Source: Diprion similis
Taxonomy: Eukaryota > Arthropoda > Insecta > Hymenoptera > Diprionidae
DNA: 64,000 nucleotides
Reading direction: 5' to 3'
NCBI RefSeq assembly: GCF_021155765.1
Contig: NC_060107.1
Location: 5,752,501 to 5,816,500 of the forward strand
Shown in pieces: positions 1 through 57,083 of this stretch. The first letter of the stretch is position 1; every line of letters begins with the position of its first letter. A program made the position numbers and the translations under genes. The notes under the pieces were generated by a model. It searched no databases. It was not told the origin of the DNA and worked only from the letters and a program-made list of their open reading frames with translations.

Positions 1-3000
1 ATGAAAAAGAGCGTAGGACCAACAGCAGAGAAATGAGGACGAAAATGAGCAGTTTTTTGGCTGTAACTTTGCAAGCGCTGCTCGCAGCGTATTGGGACTG
101 CGCTTAATCGATTCCTCTCGCAAAATTACGTCGGAATAGTGCCTGACAGAATTAATTGCAGCACTTTCCAAAGTCGTTGAAATTTTCGCCAAAAATCCAA
201 AGGCGTTAGCCTTAGTTTTTTTCTCATTTCGAAAGCCGAAAATTTTTTGATTCGGAATCGATTTGTATGACCCTTTCCGGAGTAAACCGACCCCCAGGAA
301 CTCAAAAAACACATGTAAAAAAGCGTAGGACCAACAGCAGAGAAATGAGGACGAAAATGAGCAGTTTTTTGGCTGTAACTTTGCAGGCGTTGCTCGCAGC
401 GTATTGGGACTGCGCTTAATCGATTCCTCTCGCAAAATTACGTCGGAATAGTGCCTGACAGAATTAATTGCAGCACTTTTCAAAGTCGTTGAAATTTTCG
501 CCAAAAATCCAAAGGGGTTAGCCTTAGTTTTTTTCTCATTTCCGGAGCCGAAAATTTTTCGATTCGGAATCGATTTGTATGACCCTTTCCGGAGTAAACC
601 GACCCCCAGGAACTCAAAAAACACATGTAAAAAAGCGTAGGACCAACAGCAGAGAAATGAGGACGAAAATGAGCAGTTTCTTGGCTGTAACTTTGCAAGC
701 GTTGCTCGCAGCATATTGGGACTGCGCTTAATCGATTCCTCTCGCAAAATTACGTCGGAATAGTGCCTGACAGAAATAATTGCAGCACTTTTCAAAGTCG
801 TTGCAATTTTCGCCAAAAATCCAAAGGGGTTAGCCTTAGTTTTTTTCTAATTTCTGGAGCCGAAAATTTTCCGATTCGGAATCGATTTGTATGACCCTCC
901 CCGGAGTAAATCGACCCCCAGGAACTCAGAAAACACATGAAAAAGAGCGTAGGACCAACAGCAGAGAAATGAGGACGAAAATGAGCAGTTTTTTGGCTGT
1001 AACTTTGCAAGCGCTGCTCGCAGCGTATTGGGACTGCGCTTAATCGATTCCTCTCGCAAAATTACGTCGGAATAGTGCCTGACAGAATTAATTGCAGCAC
1101 TTTCCAAAGTCGTTGAAATTTTCGCCAAAAATCCAAAGGCGTTAGCCTTAGTTTTTTTCTCATTTCGAAAGCCGAAAATTTTTTGATTCGGAATCGATTT
1201 GTATGACCCTTTTCGGAGTAAACCGACCCCCAGGAACTCAAAAAACACATGTAAAAAAGCGTAGGACCAACAGCAGAGAAATGAGGACGAAAATGAGCAG
1301 TTTTTTGGCTGTAACTTTGCAAGCGTTGCTCGCAGCGTATTGGGACTGCGCTTAATCGATTCCTCTCGCAAAATTACGTCGGAATAGTGCCTGACAGAAT
1401 TAATTGCAGCACTTTCCAAAGTCGTTGAAATTTTCGCCAAAAATCCAAAGGCGTTAGCCTTAGTTTTTTTCTCATTTCGAAAGCCGAAAATTTTTTGATT
1501 CGGAATCGATTTGTATGACCCTTTCCGGAGTAAACCGACCCCCAGGAACTCAAAAAACACATGTAAAAAAGCGTAGGACCAACAGCAGAGAAATGAGGAC
1601 GAAAATGAGCAGTTTTTTGGCTGTAACTTTGCAGGCGTTGCTCGCAGCGTATTGGGACTGCGCTTAATCGATTCCTCTCGCAAAATTACGTCGGAATAGT
1701 GCCTGACAGAATTAATTGCAGCACTTTTCAAAGTCGTTGAAATTTTCGCCAAAAATCCAAAGGCGTTAGCCTTAGTTTTTTTCTCATTTCCGAAGCCGAA
1801 AATTTTTCGATTCGGAATCGATTTGTATGACCCTCTCCGGAGTAAATCGACCCCCAGGAACTCGAAAAACACATGAAAAAGAGCGTAGGACCAACAGTAG
1901 AGAAATGAGGACGAAAATGAGCAGTTTTTTGGCTGTAACTTTGCAGGCGTTGCTCGCAGCGTATTGGGACTGCGCTTAATCGATTCCTCTCGCAAAATTA
2001 CGTCGGAATAGTGCCTGACAGAATTAATTGCAGCACTTTTCAAAGTCGTTGAAATTTTCGCCAAAAATCCAAAGGGGTTAGCCTTAGTTTTTTTCTTATC
2101 TCCGGAGCCGAAAATTTTTCGATTCGGAATCGATTTGTATGACCCTTTCCGGAGTAAACCGACCCCCAGGAACTCAGAAAACACATGAAAAAGAGCGTAG
2201 GACCAACAGCAGAGAAATGAGGACGAAAATGAGCAGTTTTTTGGCTGTAACTTTGCAAGCGCTGCTCGCAGCGTATTGGGACTGCGCTCAATCGATTCCT
2301 CTCGCAAAATTACGTCGGAATAGTGCCTGACAGAATGAATTGCAGCACTTTTCAAAGTCGTTGAAATTTTCGCCAAAAATCCAAAGGGGTTAGCCTTAGT
2401 TTTTTTCTCATTTCCGAAGCCGAAAATTTTTCGATTCGGAATCGATTTGTATGCCCCTCTCCGGAGTAAATCGACCCCCAGGAACTCGAAAAACACAGGA
2501 AAAAGAGCGTAGGACCAACAGCAGAGAAATGAGGACGAAAATGAGCAGTTTTTTGGCTGTAACTTTGCAGGCGTTGCTCGCAGCGTATTGGGACTGCGCT
2601 TAATCGATTCCTCTCGCAAAATTACGTCGGAATAGTGCCTGACAGAATTAATTGCAGCACTTTTCAAAGTCGTTGAAATTTTCGCCAAAAATCCAAAGGG
2701 GTTAGCCTTAGTTTTTTTCTTATTTCCGGAGCCGAAAATTTTTCGATTCGGAATCGATTTGTATGACCCTTTCCGGAGTAAACCGACCCCCAGGAACTCA
2801 GAAAACACATGAAAAAGAGCGTAGGACCAACAGCAGAGAAATGAGGACGAAAATGAGCAGTTTTTTGGCTGTAACTTTGCAAGCGCTGCTCGCAGCGTAT
2901 TGGGACTGCGCTTAATCGATTCCTCTCGCAAAATTACGTCGGAATAGTGCCTGACAGAATGAATTGCAGCACTTTTCAAAGTCGTTGAAATTTTCGCCAA

Positions 3001-5195
3001 AAATCCAAAGGGGTTAGCCTTAGTTTTTTTCTCATTTCCGAAGCCGAAAATTTTTCGATTCGGAATCGATTTGTATGCCCCTCTCCGGAGTAAATCGACC
3101 CCCAGGAACTCGAAAAACACATGAAAAAGAGCGTAGGACCAACAGCAGAGAAATGAGGACGAAAATGAGCAGTTTTTTGGCTGTAACTTTGCAGGCGTTG
3201 CTCGCAGCGTATTGGGACTGCGCTTAATCGATTCCTCTCGCAAAATTACGTCGGAATAGTGCCTGACAGAATTAATTGCAGCACTTTTCAAAGTCGTTGA
3301 AATTTTCGCCAAAAATCCAAAGGGGTTAGCCTTAGTTTTTTTCTCATTTCCGGAGCCGAAAATTTTTCGATATGGAATCGATTTGTATGACCCTTTCCGG
3401 AGTAAACCGACCCCCAGGAACTCAAAAAACACATGTAAAAAAGCGTAGGACCAACAGCAGAGAAATGAGGACGAAAATGAGCAGTTTCTTGGCTGTAACT
3501 TTGCAAGCGTTGCTCGCAGCATATTGGGACTGCGCTTAATCGATTCCTCTCGCAAAATTACGTCGGAATAGTGCCTGACAGAAATAATTGCAGCACTTTT
3601 CAAAGTCGTTGCAATTTCCGCCAAAAATCCAAAGGGGTTAGCCTTAGTTTTTTTCTAATTTCTGGAGCCGAAAATTTTCCGATTCGGAATCGATTTGTAT
3701 GACCCTCCCCGGAGTAAATCGACCCCCAGGAACTCAGAAAACACATGAAAAAGAGCGTAGGACCAACAGCAGAGAAATGAGGACGAAAATGAGCAGTTTT
3801 TTGGCTGTAACTTTGCAAGCGCTGCTCGCAGCGTATTGGGACTGCGCTTAATCGATTCCTCTCGCAAAATTACGTCGGAATAGTGCCTGACAGAATTAAT
3901 TGCAGCACTTTTCAAAGTCGTTGAAATTTTCGCCAAAAATCCAAAGGGGTTAGCCTTAGTTTTTTTCTCATTTCCGAAGCCGAAAATTTTTCGATTCGGA
4001 ATCGATTTGTATGACCCTCTCCGGAGTAAATCGACCCCCAGGAACTCGAAAAACACATGAAAAAGAGCGTAGGACCAACAGCAGAGAAATGAGGACGAAA
4101 ATGAGCAGTTTTTTGGCTGTAACTTTGCAGGCGTTGCTCGCAGCGTATTGGGACTGCGCCTAATCGATTCCTCTCGCAAAATGACGTCGGAATAGTGCCT
4201 GACAGAATTAATTGCAGCACTTTTCAAAGTCGTTGAAATTTTCGCCAAAAATCCAAAGGGGTTAGCCTTAGTTTTTTTCTCATTTCCGGAGCCGAAAATT
4301 TTTCGATTCGGAATCGATTTGTATGACCCTTTCCGGAGTAAACCGACCCCCAGGAACTCAAAAAACACATGTAAAAAAGCGTAGGACCAACAGCAGAGAA
4401 ATGAGGACGAAAATGAGCAGTTTTTTGGCTGTAACTTTGCAAGCGTTGCTCGCAGCGTATTGGGACTGCGCTTAATCGATTCCTCTCGCAAAATTACGTC
4501 GGATTAGTGCCTGACAGAAATAATTGCAGCACTTTTCAAAGTCGTTGCAATTTTCGCCAAAAATCCAAAGGGGTTAGCCTTAGTTTTTTTCTCATTTCCG
4601 AAGCTGAAAATTTTTCGATTCGGAATTGATTTGTATGACCCTTTCCGGAGTAAATCGACCCCCAGGAACTCGAAAAACACATGAAAAAGAGCGTAGGACC
4701 AACAGCAGAGAAATGAGGACGAAAATGAGCAGTTTTTTGGCTGTAACTTTGCAGGCGTTGCTCGCAGCGTATTGGGACTGCGCTTAATCGATTTCTCTCG
4801 CAAAATTACGTCGGAATAGTGCCTGACAGAATTAATTGCAGCACTTTTCAAAGTCGTTGAAATTTTCGCCAAAAAGCCAAAGGGGTTAGCCTTAGTTTTT
4901 TTCTCATTTCGAAAGCCGAAAATTTTTCGATTCGGAATCGATTTGTATGACCCTCTCCGGAGTAAATCGACCCCCAGGAACTCGAAAAACACATGAAAAA
5001 GAGCGTAGGACCAACAGCAGAGAAACGAGGACGAAAATGAGCAGTTTTTTGGCTGTAACTTTGCAGGCGTTGCACGCAGCGTATTGGGACTGCGCTCAAC
5101 CGATTTTCCTTGCAGAATTACGCCGATATAGTTCACCACAGAATTGCTTGCCGCATTTTTTAAAATCGTCGAAAGATTGATAAAAAATTTCAAGG
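1..5195. repeat. 312-bp tandem satellite array, 16 full units plus a decaying partial unit
   Basis: The motif beginning at base 1 recurs at 313, 625, 937 and so on every 312 bases to 4993, so 16 full monomers are visible and the array probably continues left of the window. Copies are near-identical over most of the array. The seventeenth copy matches well to about 5100, then decays and is lost near 5195, as expected at an array edge. Variants are shared between non-adjacent copies: the 625 and 3433 copies share a cagtttcttgg variant and a gcatattggg variant, and the 2185-2808 block is almost identical to 2809-3432. Because 312 is divisible by 3, one minus frame and others stay open across several units and give artefactual long open frames. 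I see no coding function. Satellite identity is certain; its family and chromosomal role are unknown. Confidence 0.97.
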
Positions 5196-7065: not shown

Positions 7066-8289
7066 ATGAGTGAAACACAATCAAAAACTGACTTGGAATC
7101 TATTGTTAAGATTCAGACTTTTGTATTTTTTGATTTGGAGACAACAGGTCTCATTCACGGCTCTAGTATGCCCAAAATAACCGAAATATCATTAGTTGCA
7201 ACGTCGAGAGATTCCTTATTCAGCAGGGACCACAGGTTGCCCAGAGTTTTGCACAAGCTCCTGATTCCAGTGCAACCGATGCGACTCATTCCATTGATAG
7301 TTTCTGAAAAAACAGGTGATTACACAGCACACACGTTTGTTATCATCTAACGTGACTCCCTTAAATTGTAATGAAAAATTACAGAAATACTAAATGATTC
7401 TCTTAACTCTAGGTCTCTACAACGATTTATTGGAACATGAGAAGCCGTTTGATCATCATACATTCGACTTATTGAACTCTTTTATCAGCAGACTGCATCC
7501 TCCGATGTGTTTTGTGGCTCACAATGGAAAGAGATTTGATTACCCGATTATTTTGTCTGAGTTGAATCGCATCGGAAGGGTAATTCACCATGATTAATTT
7601 TCATATTGATGAACGTTTTATGCACATCAACACCTCAGTATTCAATGACCTGTTGTTTTCATTTTCACAGACTTTACCCGAGAATATTTTATGCATTGAT
7701 TCGTTAGATGCATTTAGACATTTCTTTAGGCATGGTCATTCTGACGAAAGTAAAAAACCTGTTGCTCTGTCAGTTATATCCAAGGATGAGAGCACGACAT
7801 TCTTTGATGACGGAATCGACGCAAAACTTTCTGCAGCCCTTGATACATATACAGTCACTTCAACATCATTAGGAAACGTAAGAGATCTTAAAATAATCAA
7901 ACTAATCATTTGATCAGATATTTAGGAAATATCTGATGTAAATAGCATTTTAACAAGTTTTTCTTTTCGTACAGTCAATGCAAAAATTAAATGAGACAAC
8001 ACCAACTCATCAGAAGAGCAGTCCAATGAATATCAAACCCCGTAAGCTATTCAAGAGAGAATATGGATCACCAGCTAAAAAACGATTAGAATTTACCTAT
8101 GGTGCACCTGCTAATTTCAAATTGGAAACACTGTACAGGCACTTCATGGGTGCTGATCCACTCAATTCTCACTCCGCAGAGGATGATTGTTTATCGCTGC
8201 TTAGTTGCGTACTGAAAATCGGTGTTTCGTTCGTTTCTTGGGCAGACCGCAATGCTGGTCCATTAATTCGATGTGCAATAAAAAAGTAG
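7066..8289 (+). CDS. TREX1: TREX1-like DEDDh 3'-5' exonuclease
   Basis: Four exons join in phase: 7066-7315, 7413-7579, 7671-7877 and 7975-8289, giving 312 residues, close to mammalian TREX1 (314). The three exonuclease motifs are all present: Exo I FDLETTG (D23, E25), Exo II AHNGKRFDYPI (D126) and Exo III HSAEDD (H274, D279), so all four acidic metal ligands and the general-base histidine are kept. The family removes nucleotides from DNA 3' ends, and in mammals it clears cytosolic DNA and so restrains cGAS. No C-terminal hydrophobic anchor of the mammalian TREX1 kind is visible, so the protein is probably soluble, nearer TREX2 in that respect. The ATG at 7066 is preferred over an upstream TTG in the same frame. 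AATAAA lies at 8363. TREX1-like is well supported; TREX1 against TREX2 orthology cannot be settled by eye. Confidence 0.93.
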
Positions 8290-9155
8290 TAAACTCCATC
8301 TTGTAGATGGAGTTTTATTGTGAGATCTCAGTACCAAAGAGATTTGTGAATGTTGCTATGAAAATAAATATAGCATGCTAGTTAGAGTTGTTGATGAATC
8401 ACAGTTGTCCAGAGCAAGAATTAATCATATGCAGATACAATGCATAGCGATTTTGCTCTAATAAGTTAAGTTGGGTTAAAAGAAAAATTTACGGTTCTTG
8501 CGAAAATGAATATATTCTTCATAATCAATGTTCTGTGATATGCAGTCTCCCATCGATTACGCTAATTTTTCTTACATTTTACCTATTTAAAATTGATATA
8601 TTTTTTAATCGAAACCATGTCATGTTTGGGTTTGCAAGAAAAAAAATCGCCAATCTATTTTGGCGTATATTACTTTACGCACATACAAAAACATCACATC
8701 TGATGAAACCAATATATATATATATATATAATGGAAAAAATATTTTACATATTCTAACTATAATGACAAATGATTAAAAGTACCTATTAAGTTACGATAG
8801 CTAAAACTTGTATTAAATATAAAATATTTATCAAATATGTGATTGGATAAAGGCTGAGCCCAATTTTAAAAAATTTGTCTTTTTATGGATAGAATTTTCT
8901 AAGTAGACTTAGTTTGTATAACTGTAAAAATTCATTTTAAAATAATATTATCACATGAATTCCTAATTTACAATTTTTTTCCGATAATGTAGAACATCTA
9001 AAACGTCTGCTGACATTTTTGCAACATCCGTACTTTTGTGTACAGCGACGAACATCTTTTTTTTAAGTTTACTGAACACTTGACCCTTCAGTCAAGCAAA
9101 GTCACCTATGCATAGACATCAAGAAAAATCCGCGGCATTATTTCATACTCCATGT
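8290..9155. other. convergent intergenic region between TREX1-like and cGLR genes
   Basis: This holds the 3' ends of two converging genes. AATAAA at 8363-8368 is a likely poly(A) signal for the plus-strand exonuclease. A short TA microsatellite lies near 8711-8730. No additional coding exon is apparent. Confidence 0.6.
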
Positions 9156-12117
9156 TCATTGAACTGCTGGATTCGTGGTTGGAATTCTCCAGAAGGTATC
9201 CCATATAAATGTCAAAAACCCTCTATTTTGAGGAGCTGGCGCTGGTGCGGGATTTAATCTTATTTCTGCCATTGCACCAGAAAGCATTAATGTTTTCAAC
9301 TTTATCACTTCGTCTCTGTTCACTGTAAAATCAGATACATCTCAAATTAGAAAGCGGAAGGTATTATTTATAGGCTGATATAAAAATATTCTTAGTATGA
9401 TTTGTAATAATTCCCTTTCTAGTCGAAATTTCTGTATGTTAGTGATCAAAATTTTGTATCTGCTCTTTCGATACTAAGAAGTTTTTCGACAATTTCAAAC
9501 TTACGTATGTATTCTGCAATAATGAACTCATTGATCTTAATTTTTTTGTCGATATCTTTGATGATATTATTCAATCTGTCTTTTATGTTTGACATTTCTT
9601 TCTGGCTAATGTTAACCAGCAGATTGTTTTTCGGATTCCAAAAATCGAGTATTTCACCTTTTTCAATTGCTTCTTGAAATTTTTTCAGCATCTGGAACAT
9701 ATATTAAGCTAAAGTAAATTTTTAATACATTTAAAATGGGCAGTCATAAGTAGGAATCACAAAATTACAACTGCAGGCATCACTAATTGTTGATACTGCA
9801 ATAAACAAATTGATGTACTTACATAGTAAAACGTACATGTGCATGTTAATCTTTGAAAATCGAAGCTATAATTTCGTTGCTCCAATTCCCGAAGGAATAA
9901 AGTTTTTATGTAATAACTTGCAATGCTCTTAAAGTTCTGGGTATCCCTCAGTTTCTAAATATAGAAGGACAAATTTGAGGATTTGAAATTTAGGTGTATT
10001 GAAAAATCATGTCTCTTAAGATAAAAAAGGAAAAATAATAAAAAATAAAAATAAAGTAATTTTTATAGCAATATTCAATAATCAGTACCTTCATTTGTCT
10101 GATGACTTGTTTGATACTGCCTTTAAGCAATTCCTGTTCTCTTTCATAGAAACTTGGCCTCCACAGTATATGATTATTGTGACACTGTTGTAACGGTTTC
10201 GATACGGCAAACCAATTCTTCTTCTGTAAATGCAAGGCCTTATTGCATAGCCGGTTTGAGAAATGTTTAATTTTGTATTACCGAAGTGTGACTCCTGAAC
10301 GGTGGAGGAGGTTCGATCATGAATTCAAGGACTGGAACGAGGTCCACATCTACGTTGTGTCCATTAGGTACGTCTATTTTCAGCGTCAGTGCTGGGCCAC
10401 TTTTTTTTTGACGCAGCTAAAATAATTGACGTGTAATTATTTTCCATTTTTCTGATTTTGTAAAAGCAGTCATTTTACTTACTATATATTGTTTTTTATC
10501 CACTGATAAAATGTGCTCATTGTTACGACTGGATGAAAATGATTGAAACGCCCTACTCACAACCGATTCGAACCACTGACGGAATTTGTTTTGATCAAGA
10601 CACATATTTGATTTGTCAAACCATTTGTCCATGACTCTGAAGAGAAAAAATAGTATATCAATAAAATTTGCGTGTAATGAAAACTGAATAAGTAAGCCAA
10701 AGTATATTATACAAGCAGTGATGGTTCTGTCGATGGTTTTCTTGGAAAATATCATGTACCTATTACTCAAAACCTAATAGAATATAGCTCGCAAAAGTTA
10801 GCTCAAACAGTGTTTGATTTCCTGAAAGCAAGGTAAGAAAGAAATTCCGAAAAACGCAAGTTAATAAAGTACAAGCACCAGAACTATGGTGTAAAAAATT
10901 TGTTTTACATTGCATAGGTCAAAAAATAAGAATCATAAGCATATCTGAGTTTCGACAACCATGATAACCCAGTATGAGCAAGATTATAAAACCCTATCGC
11001 AATATTGGCTGGGCTTTCAAGTAACCTGACTCACAACTTTCTATATCCTGCCTTAGGTAAACGGCTGCAAAATATCGTTTGAAAGAACTTTCATTCCAAA
11101 TTTGATCAATCTTCAAACGTGTATCATAATTATTACTAGCATGTGTTTCTTCATAATAGCTATTCACAAATTGCATCACTGTACCTAGCTAATAGGATGA
11201 AACCCCAACTTCAACCTTAAACAAAGCGTTTTATTATTCAGTTCGCTTATAATCAGATCAGGAGGAATTTGACTGAATAACGATTTTGGATATATTGTGA
11301 GTCTAAATGCATTTCACGATTATGGCTTCAGGCGCATATTTTTTGGCATTAGACTTTAATATTAACTCAGAATGTGGATAAAACTTACTTATACTCGTTC
11401 CATCTAACGTGTTTTCTTAGGTTTGTTAGAACGTCTGACTTTGCTTGAATTTTCACATATCCTGGTTTTTCGGCAGCTATTAAAATCTATCAAGCAAAAG
11501 AAGAAAACTTGATTGAAACAAAATTTTCCTAAAATATTTACAGATTTATTTTTCCATCGTATCCAAAAATTATTTCTCAATGAATAATTTTAAAACACAT
11601 TCGTACATGAGCGCGCGTCTATAAAAAGAGTGATCTTTTAATATACATCAACAAAAGCGTAATAAGAAACTTGATATCTGGGTTTCTTACATTCAAAGTC
11701 TTGTAGTCGATTGGTAGATTTATAACAATATTTAGATCGTACTCTTCCGGCTTGCCTACTTTAAGTCCTTCGTAGTAACTGCCCACATATGCAATCCTCC
11801 GATAACAGGCATTAAATAGTGGATCCTTTTCTTTCATAGTTTCAATGAACTTCTTCAAGACCTATATATCACAGTTAAAAATACTGATTTTCATTTTCAT
11901 TCGTTTATTTATTCATTTTTACCAACTATTATTTTGTATGTTCAACAAAGATAATTTGCGGAAATTTTTGTAAAGAGCACAATATAATAATACATACGTT
12001 TTCTAAATGTATACTGTATTTTTTCATTTCGTCATCTTTCAAAGTGATAAATTCTCTATTTATTTCATTGAAAATACGGTCTGATTTGAACCTTGGATCA
12101 GCAAGTACAGACGTCAT
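9156..12117 (-). CDS. cGLR: cGAS-like receptor (Mab-21/cGAS nucleotidyltransferase)
   Basis: Nine exons join in phase from ATG at 12117: 11998-12117, 11691-11861, 11389-11486, 10483-10636, 10282-10416, 10089-10223, 9823-9954, 9505-9691 and 9156-9322, giving 432 residues. The nucleotidyltransferase core shows GSYYEGLKVGKPEEYDLN (G67-S68, acidic pair E80 and D82) and a third acidic residue in VDVDLVP (D206), so the metal-binding triad is complete. The C-terminal Mab-21 half has WRPSF followed by the SYYIKTLFL block and an NNLL motif. This family makes cyclic dinucleotides that activate STING after nucleic-acid binding. The vertebrate cGAS zinc-thumb cysteine cluster, expected between WRPSF and the SYYIKT helix, is absent, as in insect cGLRs, so dsRNA or another ligand is more likely than DNA (inference). 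There is no N-terminal extension or signal peptide. It converges with the TREX1-like gene 867 bp away. Confidence 0.92.
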
Positions 12118-49710: not shown

Positions 49711-52700
49711 TCAAACAGTTTCCACCTGACCCTTTCTACGTGTTTTTGGCTCTTCTTGATTTTGAGGTGACGTGAACGAGGTTTCTTCAGATTTTTTTAA
49801 TACCGGAGATGTGTCAGATAGAGGAGTTGTACTAGTAATTGCAACATCTATTCTCTCCTGAATTGCTATGGGGAGGCAAGTGACATTTTTCCCTAAAGAC
49901 GCTTTTCTACTGCGCATATCTTCAAGCGGAATCTCCTCGCTTCTTGGTCTTGGCAGTTTCGGCGAATGTTCGCGAGACTTGAGACCATTCTCGCGCATCT
50001 TGCCATTTGGGCTACTATCAGAAAGTTTACCATTCGCTGCAGATTGCCCAGCAACTGAACGTGATGAACTATCACGTCGCATTTGAGCTGCAAATCCTGG
50101 GACTTTATTTACTGTAAACATGGGCCTTGGATGGTCTTTTTGTTTTTGTCCTCTTCCTGTTGTACCTGCGGTAGATTGAACAAAGTCTTAATACACGTGC
50201 TACATACTCTCTTTTGTCAATCGGAAAACTACAAAATAAAATATCAGACGTAAGAGAAACAAAGAAGAGAATTAAAAATCCTATTACGAACTTTCTTAAC
50301 AGACGGCAACTCACGTTCTTGTCGTACATTGAGCAATGTATAATTCGGAGGTGTGGGACAGTGCGGAATGCCAGTTGGAATATCTAGCAGTCTTGCTATC
50401 TGACTCATTTTCTTTTGTCTCGCCTTGATTCTTCCTTTTGTCAATCTGAAGTAATAGATCCACATTCAGTGATAAACAAGACATATAGCATTGGTTCGAA
50501 GGTACTAAATCAATCCTAGTGCAATGCTAATTTGTATACATATAAATTAGCCAATATTCCACATGATTTTTTTTTCCAAGTCGATTATTAAAATTTCATA
50601 ATCACCTCTGTTTAGCTGCCATACATCTTATGTGATCATCGAGAATACATTTTGCCGAAAGTAAGGGTACCCTATTGGTAGCACTGCTGCTTAAAGGTCG
50701 GTGAATTGTCAAATGGAGGCATCTGGAATCATCTTTATCTCCTGTAACTTCTATGTCTTGTAGTAGGCCGACTAATTTCGCTACTCCCCATCCTAACTTC
50801 CTCGTGTCTGGTTCGACAAGAATTATTTGAATTAAGTCCATAACTAAGAACCGTCGAATTTTTTGCCCATCTTTCCCAACAATGGTGCAGGAAATGAGAT
50901 CCGTATTGTCTGTAAAATTATTTAGAAAAGGGAGGAATTAACAAAGATGCCGAATACAAAGGGTGTAGTTTACATTCTGTGTCACATATTTCGATGTCAC
51001 TTTCTAAATTGTACGTACATTTTTGTTATAGTTCATCAAATTTAATATTTACGGGATTTTATAAGAAAATTTTGTACCCAAAAGAAATCAACATCGTACG
51101 CGACAATTTTGAGTTGTAAAGAAAAAGAAAATGACTTGTACTTAGATCAAGGACGTTGTTAACCTGGACGCAGGTTGCCAAATTTGTTAAGGGTAGATGC
51201 GTCTCTGGTTGTCCATTAAGTGTTAATGACAATTCCCTGATCAAAAAGAATATCCTTATTGCTCTTCTTGCTCTTTCCACCTAAAGCGATCAAATTTATA
51301 AATTAATTGCATGAATCATTAAATTGCTATTTTGTTCAATAGTTAAGAAATAACGAACTCATAGGTACACAAGTGTCAATTATGCGATTAAGTGTGCCCA
51401 AAATTGATTTTAAATAGAAGTGTACCTCGCCACATGGTAGTCGTTTGCTGAATTCAATGCCGGTCATCGGAGTTCCAGTGGGTGGAAGCAATATGTTGCT
51501 ATCCATCATCAACCACTCAACATTCAAAGGCCTTTTTTGTAACTCGCTATACTCATCTTCAAACATATCTAAAAATATGTCTTCGCTCTACAAGAACCAA
51601 GCATCTAATACAGTTAAGTGTTTAATTGTGCGATATAGATATTAGGACTTATTTTAATTATTAACAAATGCTCCGAAACTCAATGAAGAAATTTCATACC
51701 TTATAAAAATTCCTAAGCAATGAAGTACTTTGTTCTTTAGCAGATTCAATGGCTGCTAAATGATAATCTTGCAGCAAACTCTGACCATCTGACATGACCA
51801 ATTGTAGAAGTAGCTTGATAGTTAAATCCAGTGTGACTAATCGTACCTTAGTGTCTGAAAAAAATTTCACTTTCTACTAATACCCTGCAACAACACTCTA
51901 GTGCCATATCCTAATAGAGATACAAATTTAAACTAACTTGTTTGACAACTCAACGTGATTATCTGAATCAGTCTATCTACAAGAATTTCATTGTACCAAT
52001 TTTTCGTAAATGTTTTCTGTGACGGGGATAATACCCAGTCCAACATTTCAGGCTTGATACCCTGAAATCGAAATTTTGTTTTGAGATTAATTTTTCTACT
52101 AGAATCATTTCTGAAAGGATTTATAATGCCTAGTCATACCTGATTATTAGCTAAAGCATACAGTAAACATAATGAAAACAACGCTGCATAGTCGTTTTCC
52201 GTACAGCTTAATGCATTTAATATAGATTCCAAAAATGGTTTATTGGCCAAGGGTTCCTGTACATCACTCGACGATTGCTGAGGTGTTAATGGACTTTCGA
52301 GAGCCAGCCGCTGTTCCTTCTCTTCATCTGTCACATTAAGGTTCTTTATTTTATTCAGTGTATCGTTTGAAGTGTCAATATTTAGAACTTCAGGTCGTGG
52401 CAAAGTTTTTGACATATTACTGGAAGTACTTGGTTCAACTGAAGGTGGATTCTCAGTCAGTTCACATTCTGTGGTTTTCTCAATTGTATCTGCAGCAGTA
52501 AACTGAATCTCCGACACGATCCCGTCGCTCTGTGTTTCGTTCAAACTTTCGAGCGACTTTTTCAGGCTTTCCTGCGGCTGTACAAATGCTATTTTCTCAA
52601 CCGCGGACACATTTGTATAATCCTCCAGTAATTGACTTGCACCATTTTCGATTATATTTAAATTAGACTTCAATATTATAGCAGCCAAAGTGTGAACAAG

Positions 52701-54631
52701 TGGTCCGTGCGATATAATCAAAAATACTTGTGAAAGTAGAAACAGGGATACAACGGCACTGACATGTTTCTTCTTCTCCTGAAAATTAATGAAAAGAAGT
52801 TAACAGAATTCATCATGATCATTGGGTCTTATAAGTTTTCATCTTATAAGTTGTTATTAATTAGTTACTTTCGATTTTATTATTATCTATACTCAGTGAC
52901 AACTTACCTTAGTTTGAAAAAATTGTGACTTATGCCTGGTTAACGAATAAACGTACAAAGGCACCAATAATTTGTGAAGCAAGTGTTCGGTAAGAACTTG
53001 ATTTAAATCTGGTATATCCAGGCAAAGAATGTCGTTCAAGTAATGCAGATGATCGAGATGTTCAGCTACTAAATCCGAGAGCCTATTCTGACTCTGGTGA
53101 CTAAAATGTATATTAACTATCAAAAATATAGTAGATTTTGTAGACTTAATAACTAATCAAATTTGTTATTAATGGGAAAAAATATTTCATGGGATATTTC
53201 GTTAGTAATGCATGTTTAACTATAAATATGAAGAGCTTACTCGGCATCGTTTCTAACACAAGTGTCTAGTTCAATGATGTGATTTCCAATAAACCAAACA
53301 AGATTACTAAAATATGGAGCTGCCGTCCTGTCTCTGATGAATGTCAGCATTGAAGCATCTTCAACACGATACACATTTAGCGTCAAAGTGCGCACTGCAA
53401 TGCGCACCATGCCCTCAGTGTGATTGAAGAATTTGATAGCTTCGGTGTATAGTGGGAAGTCGTTCGTATGCTGAAATTTAGATGTCAAGTTATATGAAAG
53501 AATCCATAAACGAAATCTGGATAGTGAGAAAGTGTAGTGCATTTTAAAAATTGTTGACGAGTATTGCATTAATCCATAAGGTAATTAAGAAAAAATAGAT
53601 TGTAGCATCCGCAACTAAGTAATATTGTTATCTCTATTGTTGTTGAAAAATCATGAAATGACATAAAATTAAGGAAATAAAATATGCAGTGTTCTGTGTA
53701 CCTCGTTTACCTCGTTATAGAAGAAGTGAATAGTATGGACGTTCAGTTTAAGGCTCAAAGTTTTGAGAAAGCTTATGTAGTAAGCCATGACTTCTTCGTC
53801 ACTGAAGTCAAATTTGTGAACAATTATACTATTTACATGGTTGTTGCTCAATAAGTAATCTGAAATGATAATCGAACAAATTGATAGTAAACAGACTTCT
53901 AACGAGTATACAAGTTTTATACATCCTCGAATATATGGTTAAAAAAAGTAACTTACACAAAGATGTTTCGTTGCGAATATTCTCAAACAAGATATTGAGC
54001 GTTTGGAGGAGTTGAACACATACGTAGCTACCGCATTTCTGTTTCATTATCCGAAGAAAGAATGAAAGCATATTTTTCTCCAGGAAAAAACTGAAATCAC
54101 ATTAAATGAACAAAATGGAATACCTTTCCAACGCAAGAAATACAGTTTTCGTAACATACTCGAACACACTGCTGTCATTTTGATCGCCCCAGATCAAAAT
54201 TTCAGCTATCGAACGCAAGGTCTCAACTAGTAGGCCTCTGTTATTCTCGGAGACAGTATGATTCTTAGATAAGACGTTGTAAAGGTATCTGAAAAGTGAT
54301 AAATCAACACTAATATCATTTCTCTTGACATAAATAAACCAACCATTTTAAAAATAATTTTAATGTGAAACCATTATATAACTACAACTGACAAGCTGGT
54401 ATTCTATGTATACTTTTAAGAAATTTCAGTTTGCGTAGGCGACATAGAGATTTTGGTAACGATCTGACGATTTGCTGTCTGGTACAATAAAAAAATTATG
54501 ACGCTTCGTCAATTGTCAGTTAAATGCAAAAGGATCCGGTTCATACAGCGGACTTACTTTAGATGTTCCAGAGAATGTGGATTTTTGGGTTTCCAAAGGC
54601 CCCCGCCAAACCAGCTACGACTTCGAAACAT
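49711..54631 (-). CDS. CLEC16A: CLEC16A / ema endosomal-autophagy regulator
   Basis: Fourteen exons join in phase from ATG at 54631: 54558-54631, 54160-54288, 53957-54090, 53711-53859, 53241-53470, 52908-53100, 52140-52778, 51938-52061, 51700-51854, 51426-51587, 51142-51280, 50606-50909, 50315-50445 and 49711-50165, giving 1005 residues (human 1053). It follows human CLEC16A closely: [11 protein letters not shown] start, [57 protein letters not shown] and [20 protein letters not shown]. The first third is the conserved FPL domain. Despite its name the protein is not a lectin; in Drosophila (ema) and mammals it acts on endosomes, promoting endosomal maturation, autophagosome growth and mitophagy. 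Residues encoded by 52140-52778 include a Ser/Thr/Glu-rich insert, and the last exon encodes a basic, Ser-rich disordered tail. Confidence 0.96.
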
Positions 54632-55360: not shown

Positions 55361-57083
55361 ATGAAGGTCTTAGAATTATACAGCGGAATCGGGGGGATGC
55401 ATTTCGCTCTGCGAGGTAATTTTTTCAACTAGATATCTATCTATTATGCATACGAACGCATGTGATCTGTTGCGCGTAGCCAAACTACTCCACTCATATT
55501 TACGATCATTTCCAAATACATTGACCTTTTTGTGTCAATGCGTTTACGTTTGCTATCTCTATCGAATCTCGATGTCGATTGCCAAGATTTTTCGAAGTCC
55601 GCTTATTTAATCTAATTTTCCGACGCGCAAATGGTTTCAACTCAACCAAAAGCTTCTTTTTAGATATTGCAGAAACTAGCGTCACTTTGTTCAAATCGAA
55701 TCAATTTGTAACAGTATTGAAATTTGAGGTTACAAAATGCACGTGTAACGTGTTTACGAAACAAATGACTCAATGAATTCATGAATGCGATGAAAACAAG
55801 TATGATGTATTTCCAATATAGCAATTGATACCTGATTCAGTTTTTCGAAGTCCGTAAATAAACCTAAAATAATCTTCATAAATTTATATTCTACAGTATC
55901 ACTAAAAATTTGAATTTTTCATCGCATTTCATTGGTGGAGTGTTTATATAACTGATCCAATTTCACTATTTATCTTCAAATTCTGCAATTCCACTGGCAA
56001 CGAAGGATCCATTTTAAAAAAACAAAAGAAACACATCTCTGTTCACAAATTGTTACAACGGAAATTTCAGTTTCAAAATGACTATAACAACATTAGTTTT
56101 CCTTTTCAGAAAGTGGTATCCAGTACAAAGTCCTTACTTCGATTGATATAAATACAGCAGCGAACGAAGTCTACCGCGACAACTTTCCCGATACTGTAAA
56201 TTTGGGCCGCAATATACAATCGTTTGACATAGAACAGATAAGAAAGCTATCTGTAGATACCATTCTTATGAGCCCCCCTTGTCAACCATTCACCAGAGTT
56301 GGTCTAAAAAAGGATATATTGGACAACAGAACGGATTCTTTTTTACATGTTTTAGAGTTAATTCCGCAAATCGCAACGCTGAATTATGTTTTAGTCGAGA
56401 ATGTAAAAGGTTTTGAAACCTCGCAAGCCAGGGATAAATTAGTAGAATGTATCGTTAACTCTGGATTCAATTACAAAGAATTTTTATTGAGTCCGTGTCA
56501 ATTTGGAATACCCAACACGCGGCACAGATACTATATGATAGCGAAGAGGAAAGAATTCCGTTTTTTCTTCACTGATCCATCTTTGACAAAATTTTATCCC
56601 GAGGAAATATTAGAAGATAATAAAGGTGCTAAGAGAATTGTAAATATTTTAGAAGATAACATTGACGAGAACAATTATCTTATTTCTACAAAAATATTAG
56701 CAAAACATGCTGGAGTTCTTGACATTCGTACAGCAGCATCGACTAAATCTTGTTGTTTCACAAAAGCTTACGGTCGCTATGCGGAAGGTACCGGATCTGT
56801 TTTTTGCCCAATGTCTGAGGAGCTAGTCTCAGAGAAGTTCTTAGAATCTAAAATGTACGGAGACGATGTCAAAAAGAAAGCAGAAGTACTGAGTAGTTTG
56901 AAATTGCGTTACTTTACACCCCGTGAGGTTGCTAGATTAATGTGCTTTCCGGAAGATTTTCACTTTCCAAAGACTACAACGACAAAACAGAAGTACAGAC
57001 TACTGGGAAACTCAATAAACGTCTTTGTAGTTTGCCAATTAATAAAATTATTGAAATATGGTGACGCTGACGCGTTGTCTTGA
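55361..57083 (+). CDS. TRDMT1: TRDMT1 / Dnmt2 tRNA cytosine-38 C5-methyltransferase
   Basis: Two exons, 55361-55415 and 56110-57083, join in phase 1 to give 342 residues (Drosophila Mt2 about 345). Cytosine methyltransferase motifs appear in order: motif I LELYSGIGGMHFAL, motif IV PPCQPFTRVG with catalytic Cys76, motif VI ENVKGFE, motif VIII QFGIPNTRHRYY and motif X LLGNSIN. The absence of any N-terminal regulatory region and the overall length point to Dnmt2 rather than Dnmt1 or Dnmt3. The family methylates C38 of tRNA-Asp and some other tRNAs, protecting them from cleavage under stress. AATAAA at 57120 is a good poly(A) signal. Confidence 0.96.

Follow-up and report, generated by a model that had tools for sequence, protein, structure and literature searches.

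Does a nuclease gene that lies tail to tail with the gene for a cGAS-like receptor (cGLR) encode a brake on that receptor? This question is raised by a locus of the hymenopteran Diprion similis, where a TREX-family exonuclease gene and a cGLR gene (cGLR-A) converge within the window that we analyzed, a stretch of 64,000 nucleotides (Table 1). A first-pass annotation of this DNA had suggested that the two genes may form a conserved module of a sensor and its restraint, with chance as an equal alternative. In mammals, ER-anchored TREX1 is reported to degrade cytosolic DNA and to restrain cGAS-STING (PMC11144269). Here, we describe the two genes, the interval between them, and the cGLR cluster to which they belong. 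We consider it rather likely that there is nothing unusual about TREX and cGLR-A, both of which are intact, and that they are probably independent of each other and became neighbors through local rearrangement.

Results

The nuclease gene has a sole frame-consistent GT-AG model within the junction windows supplied. Its protein contains an RNase_T domain (Pfam, 1.9e-05) and matched 32 solved structures at 0.001 (best, 5e-31), of which 28 are named TREX1 or TREX2 and four exodeoxyribonuclease III. The DEDDh active site is complete within the TREX-like domain (D23, E25, D126, H274, and D279; motif positions). Thus, the domain, the TREX matches, and the five residues bear out the annotation of this gene as a TREX-family member with a complete DEDDh site. 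By bit score rather than by tree, the nuclease is closer to TREX2 (107.7 and 107.2 for two sequences, the former being its best match among TREX-named structures) than to TREX1 (at most 93.1); this distinction is a matter of scores, and the top solved match (9l8a, 111.5 bits) bears no TREX name, just that of exodeoxyribonuclease III. The C-terminal extension with an ER tail anchor, which is described as a feature of TREX1 (PMC11904002, PMC11144269), was sought in the protein and is absent: the nuclease stops at residue 312, the TREX1 alignments extend to residue 305, i.e., seven residues short of this end, and the most hydrophobic 19-residue stretch (residues 280-298) lies within the TREX1-aligned portion. 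The nuclease resembles mammalian TREX2 (1y97, 6a45) in its DEDDh core and in ending just past the exonuclease domain; it differs from TREX2 in an insert of ~90 residues, containing lysine and arginine, that precedes the third exonuclease motif. TREX2 is an active exonuclease. Human TREX2 is stated in one source to lack exonuclease activity (PMC12206365), so that by analogy to TREX2 the insect protein is a putative exonuclease. In a whole-genome search, a single TREX copy was found.

Table 1. Positions of the two convergent genes and of neighboring features, numbered from the first letter of the window
Feature	Position	Strand	Description
TREX-family DEDDh 3'-5' exonuclease gene	7066-8289	+	4 predicted exons, 312 aa
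TREX gene exons	7066-7315, 7413-7579, 7671-7877, 7975-8289	+	GT-AG model
cGLR-A gene	12117-9156	-	9 predicted exons, 432 aa
cGLR-A exons	12117-11998, 11861-11691, 11486-11389, 10636-10483, 10416-10282, 10223-10089, 9954-9823, 9691-9505, 9322-9156	-	
Stop-to-stop interval, TREX/cGLR-A	8290-9155		866 bp between (867 by subtraction)
Near-palindrome at the TREX stop codon	8275-8321		11-bp perfect stem, 3-nt loop (8291-8315)
Poly(A) signals	AATAAA at 8277 and 8363	+	that at 8277 within the last TREX codons
Poly(A) signals	AATAAA at 8314-8319, ATTAAA at 8604, AGTAAA at 9068	-	
Satellite array	-8967 to 5174		~312-bp unit, 14 kb; between cGLR-B and TREX

For cGLR-A, 24 splice models were frame-consistent, and the 432-aa model with consensus donors and acceptors was picked by inspection. 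The protein contains the Mab-21 (PF03281, 2.5e-28) and Mab-21_C (PF20266, 3.4e-15) domains of a cGLR, and its catalytic triad, [D/E]-h-D...D, consists of E80-Y81-D82 together with D206; these domain matches and the residue check agree with the earlier reading of the gene as a cGAS-like receptor with E80, D82, and D206. Among three solved matches, the closest relative of cGLR-A is Tc-cGLR of Tribolium castaneum (PDB 7lt2, XP_969398.1; E 1.8e-53), with 134 of the 360 aligned residues identical. Both are Mab-21-type proteins with an E-x-D motif, a distal D, and a basic pI. They differ at the C terminus, where residues ~394-432 of cGLR-A form a tail rich in Pro and aromatic residues, in a comparison that covered all but the last 25 of the 399 Tc-cGLR residues. 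The gap between the EYD motif and D206 is 123 residues in cGLR-A and 120 in Tc-cGLR, and both exceed the 50-90 quoted for cGLRs (PMC8410604). The pI of cGLR-A is 9.44 and that of its paralog cGLR-B (see below) 9.28, in line with the pI above 8.5 given for nucleic-acid-sensing cGLRs (PMC9980059). Tc-cGLR is reported to be specifically activated by dsRNA (PMC8410604), and 2'3'-cGAMP is given as the product of a T. castaneum cGLR in a source that also describes dsDNA-sensing cGLRs in oysters (PMC9980059). By analogy to Tc-cGLR, the ligand of cGLR-A is probably long dsRNA.

The annotated tail-to-tail layout was confirmed, as was the spacing of 867 when taken by subtraction. Only one AATAAA occurs on the minus strand of the interval; it borders a hairpin and is 25 bases away from the TREX stop codon. 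In the fold predicted for this hairpin, its outer arms bring the plus-strand AATAAA (8277) into pairing with the minus-strand AATAAA (8314-8319). The fold has a z score of −3.61, and one of 200 shuffles folded equally well. Because the hairpin 25-mer is unique in 269 Mb, allowing up to three mismatches, we rejected the idea that it is a repeat element. We conjecture that the hairpin is a candidate two-way 3' end for TREX and cGLR-A. Overlapping 3' ends of the two genes are possible, and among convergent genes of insects they would be nothing out of the ordinary; such layouts are common in Drosophila, where 4366 convergent loci were studied (PMC7144943). Upstream of TREX and cGLR-A, we found no kappa-B-like patterns, which says little because their rarity in the window leads one to expect 0-0.02 per region. 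A STAT-like palindromic site occurs once upstream of TREX (6206; both strands counted) versus 1.27 expected, and not at all upstream of cGLR-A versus 1.33 expected, which are unremarkable counts.

A tandem paralog, cGLR-B, lies 24 kb to the left of cGLR-A outside the window, and TREX sits inside this cGLR cluster between the two copies. cGLR-B appears complete, with the catalytic triad and both the Mab-21 and Mab-21_C domains; the C-terminal tail of cGLR-A is absent from it. The exon structures of the two models match, with the cGLR-B junctions having been sought where cGLR-A predicts them. Between the two genes, dN is 0.29 and dS 1.27 (pairwise dN/dS about 0.23), and the dS value argues that the duplication is old. 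Among the listed frames of at least 75 aa, the next recognizable gene downstream of cGLR-B encodes an ankyrin-repeat protein rather than TREX. A search of 114 kb for a TREX relic beside cGLR-B gave chance-level matches only (E 0.9 to 7.9). Thus, of the two cGLRs, only cGLR-A has a TREX neighbor, based on these 114 kb and the whole-genome search.

The count of two cGLRs is a lower bound because further Mab-21_C matches, two over the cut-off on contig C4 (C4:25210797 and C4:23181767) and a weak one on contig C6, may represent additional Mab-21 family genes. STING_LBD exons were located on another contig (C5:3035402-3038360; two of four places over the cut-off), in keeping with the annotators' background that insect cGLRs act through STING. 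Drosophila species are reported to have three to seven cGLRs each (PMC8410604). As in such insect expansions, more than one closely related cGLR is present here; the difference is that an unrelated TREX gene and the 14-kb satellite separate both copies.

Searches of viral contigs with cGLR-A and TREX (two and five pattern-matching stretches, respectively) confirmed no relatives, and neither did searches with an alignment of cGLR-A and cGLR-B in genome contigs (41 stretches) or viral contigs (64 stretches). The TREX-cGLR neighborhood is unmentioned in the literature titles and abstract openings surveyed.

Discussion

Our preferred explanation is that TREX and cGLR-A are ordinary genes brought together by local rearrangement. 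From the sequence, we read the predicted gene structures, the catalytic residues, the paralogy, the STING-domain exons, and, through searches, the copy number; the ligand, the product, the localization, and the lack of coupling between TREX and cGLR-A we infer. We suggest that long dsRNA is the probable ligand of cGLR-A, which belongs to a tandem pair of insect cGLRs, and that the activated receptor would probably make a cyclic dinucleotide acting on STING, whose exons lie on another contig. The nuclease would probably function as a TREX2-type 3'-5' exonuclease that processes the 3' ends of DNA, either in the nucleus or in the cytosol. Rearrangement around the growing cGLR cluster would have made TREX and cGLR-A adjacent, and the two would share only what any convergent pair has, i.e., nearby or slightly overlapping 3' ends. 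Several considerations count against this explanation. First, the chance of TREX immediately neighboring one of two cGLRs is 2.7-4.0e-4, assuming 10,000-15,000 genes, which speaks against independence, though this is tempered by the pair having been chosen post hoc from many conceivable pairs. Second, a TREX2-like enzyme could still clear cytosolic DNA. Third, the dsRNA ligand of cGLR-A is only probable, given that dsDNA-sensing cGLRs are described in oysters, and the TREX2 assignment of the nuclease is one of scores.

A detailed form of the same explanation, with which its likelihood overlaps, is that TREX moved into the cluster, or that a cGLR duplicated past TREX, by recombination around the 14-kb satellite. 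The position of the ~312-bp repeats between cGLR-B and TREX and the matching exon models are consistent with such an accident of this lineage; however, the old duplication indicated by dS fits it less well, and we propose this course of events only tentatively.

It is also conceivable, but unlikely, that the convergent transcripts themselves have a regulatory role. According to this model, read-through or overlapping 3' ends would generate dsRNA and siRNAs and lead to mutual damping of TREX and cGLR-A, or would provide a source of self-dsRNA next to the gene for a dsRNA sensor. The lone minus-strand AATAAA at the unique hairpin so close to the TREX stop codon argues for this model, as do observations in flies, where most of the 4366 convergent loci are reported to yield moderate Dicer-2-dependent siRNAs (PMC7144943). 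However, the nearer AGTAAA and ATTAAA could terminate the cGLR-A transcript early, and an effect of this kind would apply to convergent genes in general.

In the restraint model originally proposed, self nucleic acid would be degraded by the nuclease before it could trigger cGLR-A, and selection would hold the genes together; this model appears improbable to us. In its favor, the active sites of both proteins are intact, TREX is the immediate neighbor of cGLR-A and lies between the two cGLRs, and, as in the mammalian TREX1-cGAS axis, both protein families and STING occur in one genome. However, the insect nuclease leans toward TREX2 by score and lacks the ER tail anchor, and the receptor is nearest to the dsRNA-activated Tc-cGLR; a DNA exonuclease would not remove dsRNA, which weakens this reading. 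Moreover, cGLR-B has no TREX beside it, and because TREX and cGLR-A converge, they share no promoter. To our knowledge, the human TREX1 and cGAS genes are not neighbors. We attach very little weight to the conjecture that selection keeps TREX among the cGLRs because it is a brake, linked to them, on cyclic-dinucleotide signaling, with the palindrome as a shared two-way 3' end through which the outputs of sensor and brake would be coupled.

How insects avoid self-activation of cGLR-STING signaling is, as far as we know, an open question, and a nuclease linked to a cGLR would, if the link were true, be an obvious candidate for preventing it. Under the preferred explanation of two neighboring but probably independent genes, the locus adds one more two-gene cGLR cluster to those of insects. 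It also calls for caution, in that membership of an insect gene in the TREX family does not by itself make the gene a brake of the TREX1 type that acts on a sensor of DNA.

Results

Judged by sequence, the DEDDh exonuclease gene (TREX gene) and the convergent cGAS-like receptor gene cGLR-A are intact, and each is of a known kind. The first-pass annotation had described both accurately, and gene models, domains, and catalytic residues were all recovered. The TREX model is the sole frame-consistent GT-AG model inside the supplied junction windows; for cGLR-A, the 432-aa model with consensus splice sites was chosen among 24 frame-consistent splice models.

The predicted TREX protein matches Pfam RNase_T (1.9e-05) and has the complete DEDDh catalytic set (D23, E25, D126, H274, and D279). 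Among its 32 matches to solved structures, 28 bear a TREX1 or TREX2 name; the other four, which include the top match (9l8a, 5e-31), are called exodeoxyribonuclease III. Two TREX2 sequences scored 107.7 and 107.2 bits, and no TREX1 match exceeded 93.1 bits. Based on hydrophobicity and alignment to TREX1, no C-terminal tail anchor was seen, because the protein ends 7 residues past the TREX1-aligned part and its peak hydrophobic 19-residue stretch (280-298) lies within that part. An insert of ~90 residues precedes the third exonuclease motif. Thus, the initial label "TREX1-like" is too specific; the scores support a TREX-family nuclease nearer TREX2. A PADLOC CRISPR-associated DEDDh model also matches the protein (1.6e-13), as expected from the shared fold.

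cGLR-A contains Mab-21 (2.5e-28) and Mab-21_C (3.4e-15) domains and the active-site residues E80, D82, and D206, and has a pI of 9.44. Of its three matches to solved structures, 7lt2 is the best by far (E 1.8e-53; next, 8.8e-13). This structure is Tc-cGLR (PMC8410604), to which cGLR-A is identical at 134 of 360 aligned residues. PADLOC oligonucleotide-cyclase models match cGLR-A (best, 2.4e-05), as expected from the shared fold.

A genome search (269 Mb, 60 contigs) with cGLR-A, in which only the top candidates were scored, one exon at a time, recovered the exons of cGLR-A itself plus another gene, cGLR-B, which lies 24 kb to the left in the same orientation. The cGLR-B model is the best-scoring of several, with junctions sought where cGLR-A predicts them; its nine exons match those of cGLR-A, and it has both Mab-21 domains and the same catalytic triad. 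The two proteins share 230 of 396 residues (58%), with dN 0.29 and dS 1.27 over 396 codons. Two single-exon Mab-21 genes lie on contig C11. Two cGLRs is a lower bound because two further Mab-21_C matches, on contig C4, exceed the family cut-off. STING-domain exons are present on another contig.

An equivalent genome search found no further TREX, and within 114 kb (the window plus 50 kb of left flank) matches beyond the TREX gene itself were at chance level (E 0.9 or worse). From the flank searches around cGLR-B and TREX, TREX lies inside a two-gene cGLR cluster and adjoins one copy only. The satellite array in this cluster shows 95% matches in its window part (1-5174); clearly repetitive as it is, it keeps reading frames open for hundreds of codons.

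Positions of genes and other features (plain numbers, window positions; C3, contig of the window, which spans C3:5752501-5816500)
Feature	Position	Strand	Description
TREX gene	7066-7315, 7413-7579, 7671-7877, 7975-8289	+	312 aa (predicted)
cGLR-A	12117-9156	-	nine exons, 432 aa (predicted)
cGLR-A C-terminal tail	~9156-9275	-	residues ~394-432, Pro- and aromatic-rich; absent from cGLR-B
cGLR-B	C3:5740689-5735600 (-11811 to -16900)	-	outside window; 9 exons, 399 aa, apparently complete (predicted)
Ankyrin-repeat gene	C3:5733276-5734309	as cGLR-B	next recognisable gene downstream of cGLR-B among frames >=75 aa
Satellite array	-8967 to 5174		~312-bp unit, 14 kb; between cGLR-B and TREX
Mab-21_C matches	C4:25210797-25211060; C4:23181767-23181988		perhaps other Mab-21 family genes
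Hairpin	8291-8315		directly 3' of TREX stop codon
AATAAA	8314-8319	-	25 bases from TREX stop codon
ATTAAA; AGTAAA	8604; 9068	-	variant signals
AATAAA	8277; 8363	+	8277 within last TREX codons
C-5 cytosine DNA methylase domain	56097-57080	+	PF00145, 1.6e-41
CLEC16A C-terminal domain	52137-52799	-	PF19439, 3.3e-28
Long open frames	C3:5723452-5729001	+	myosin heavy chain-like by eye

The 866-bp gap between the stop codons has a single AATAAA on the cGLR strand, and the cGLR-A transcript could end before reaching it. The hairpin has a perfect 11-bp stem and a 3-base loop, and in the predicted fold (-20.9 kcal/mol, z -3.61; matched by 1 of 200 shuffles) two AATAAA signals, one per strand, pair with each other at its base. 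Its 25-mer occurs nowhere else in the genome, even with up to 3 mismatches allowed. For the 114 kb, 181 short-loop stems of >=10 bp were listed, a total in which some stems appear twice owing to different loop sizes; no other stem on the list has four G or C in an arm. We conjecture that this hairpin is a candidate two-way 3' end.

Discussion

We consider it likely that TREX and cGLR-A would be independent neighbours. With two cGLRs placed at random and 10,000-15,000 genes assumed, TREX would have a cGLR as immediate neighbour with a chance of 2.7-4.0e-4, for a pair picked post hoc among all pairs that a story could link. The convergent layout itself is common; a fly study reports 4366 convergent loci, most giving a moderate amount of Dicer-2-dependent siRNAs (passage in PMC7144943). 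A local rearrangement may have brought the two genes together, a detailed form of the independent-neighbours reading, so that the confidences in the two overlap.

The ligand of cGLR-A is most likely dsRNA, by analogy with Tc-cGLR of the beetle Tribolium castaneum, for which Slavik et al. 2021 (PMC8410604) describe specific activation by dsRNA. Passages of a preprint (Li et al. 2023, PMC9980059) attribute 2'3'-cGAMP synthesis to a cGLR from this beetle; they also place dsDNA-sensing cGLRs near human cGAS and describe dsRNA sensors as divergent. Mammalian TREX1 is described as kept at the ER by its anchor, degrading cytosolic DNA (PMC11144269, PMC11904002), whereas the Diprion protein has no visible tail anchor. 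The probable mismatch between a dsRNA-activated receptor and a DNA nuclease, the lack of a visible ER anchor, and a cGLR-B without a TREX neighbour make it improbable that, as first proposed, the pair is a sensor-and-brake module in which TREX restrains cGLR-A signalling.

TREX2 is an active exonuclease. At odds with this, one published passage describes human TREX2 as lacking such activity (PMC12206365). In one table of a cotton bollworm study, a "three prime repair exonuclease 2-like" gene is listed at 8.51 before and 2.14 after dsRNA in the wild type (PMC6823249). These values hint at an insect TREX that may respond to dsRNA.
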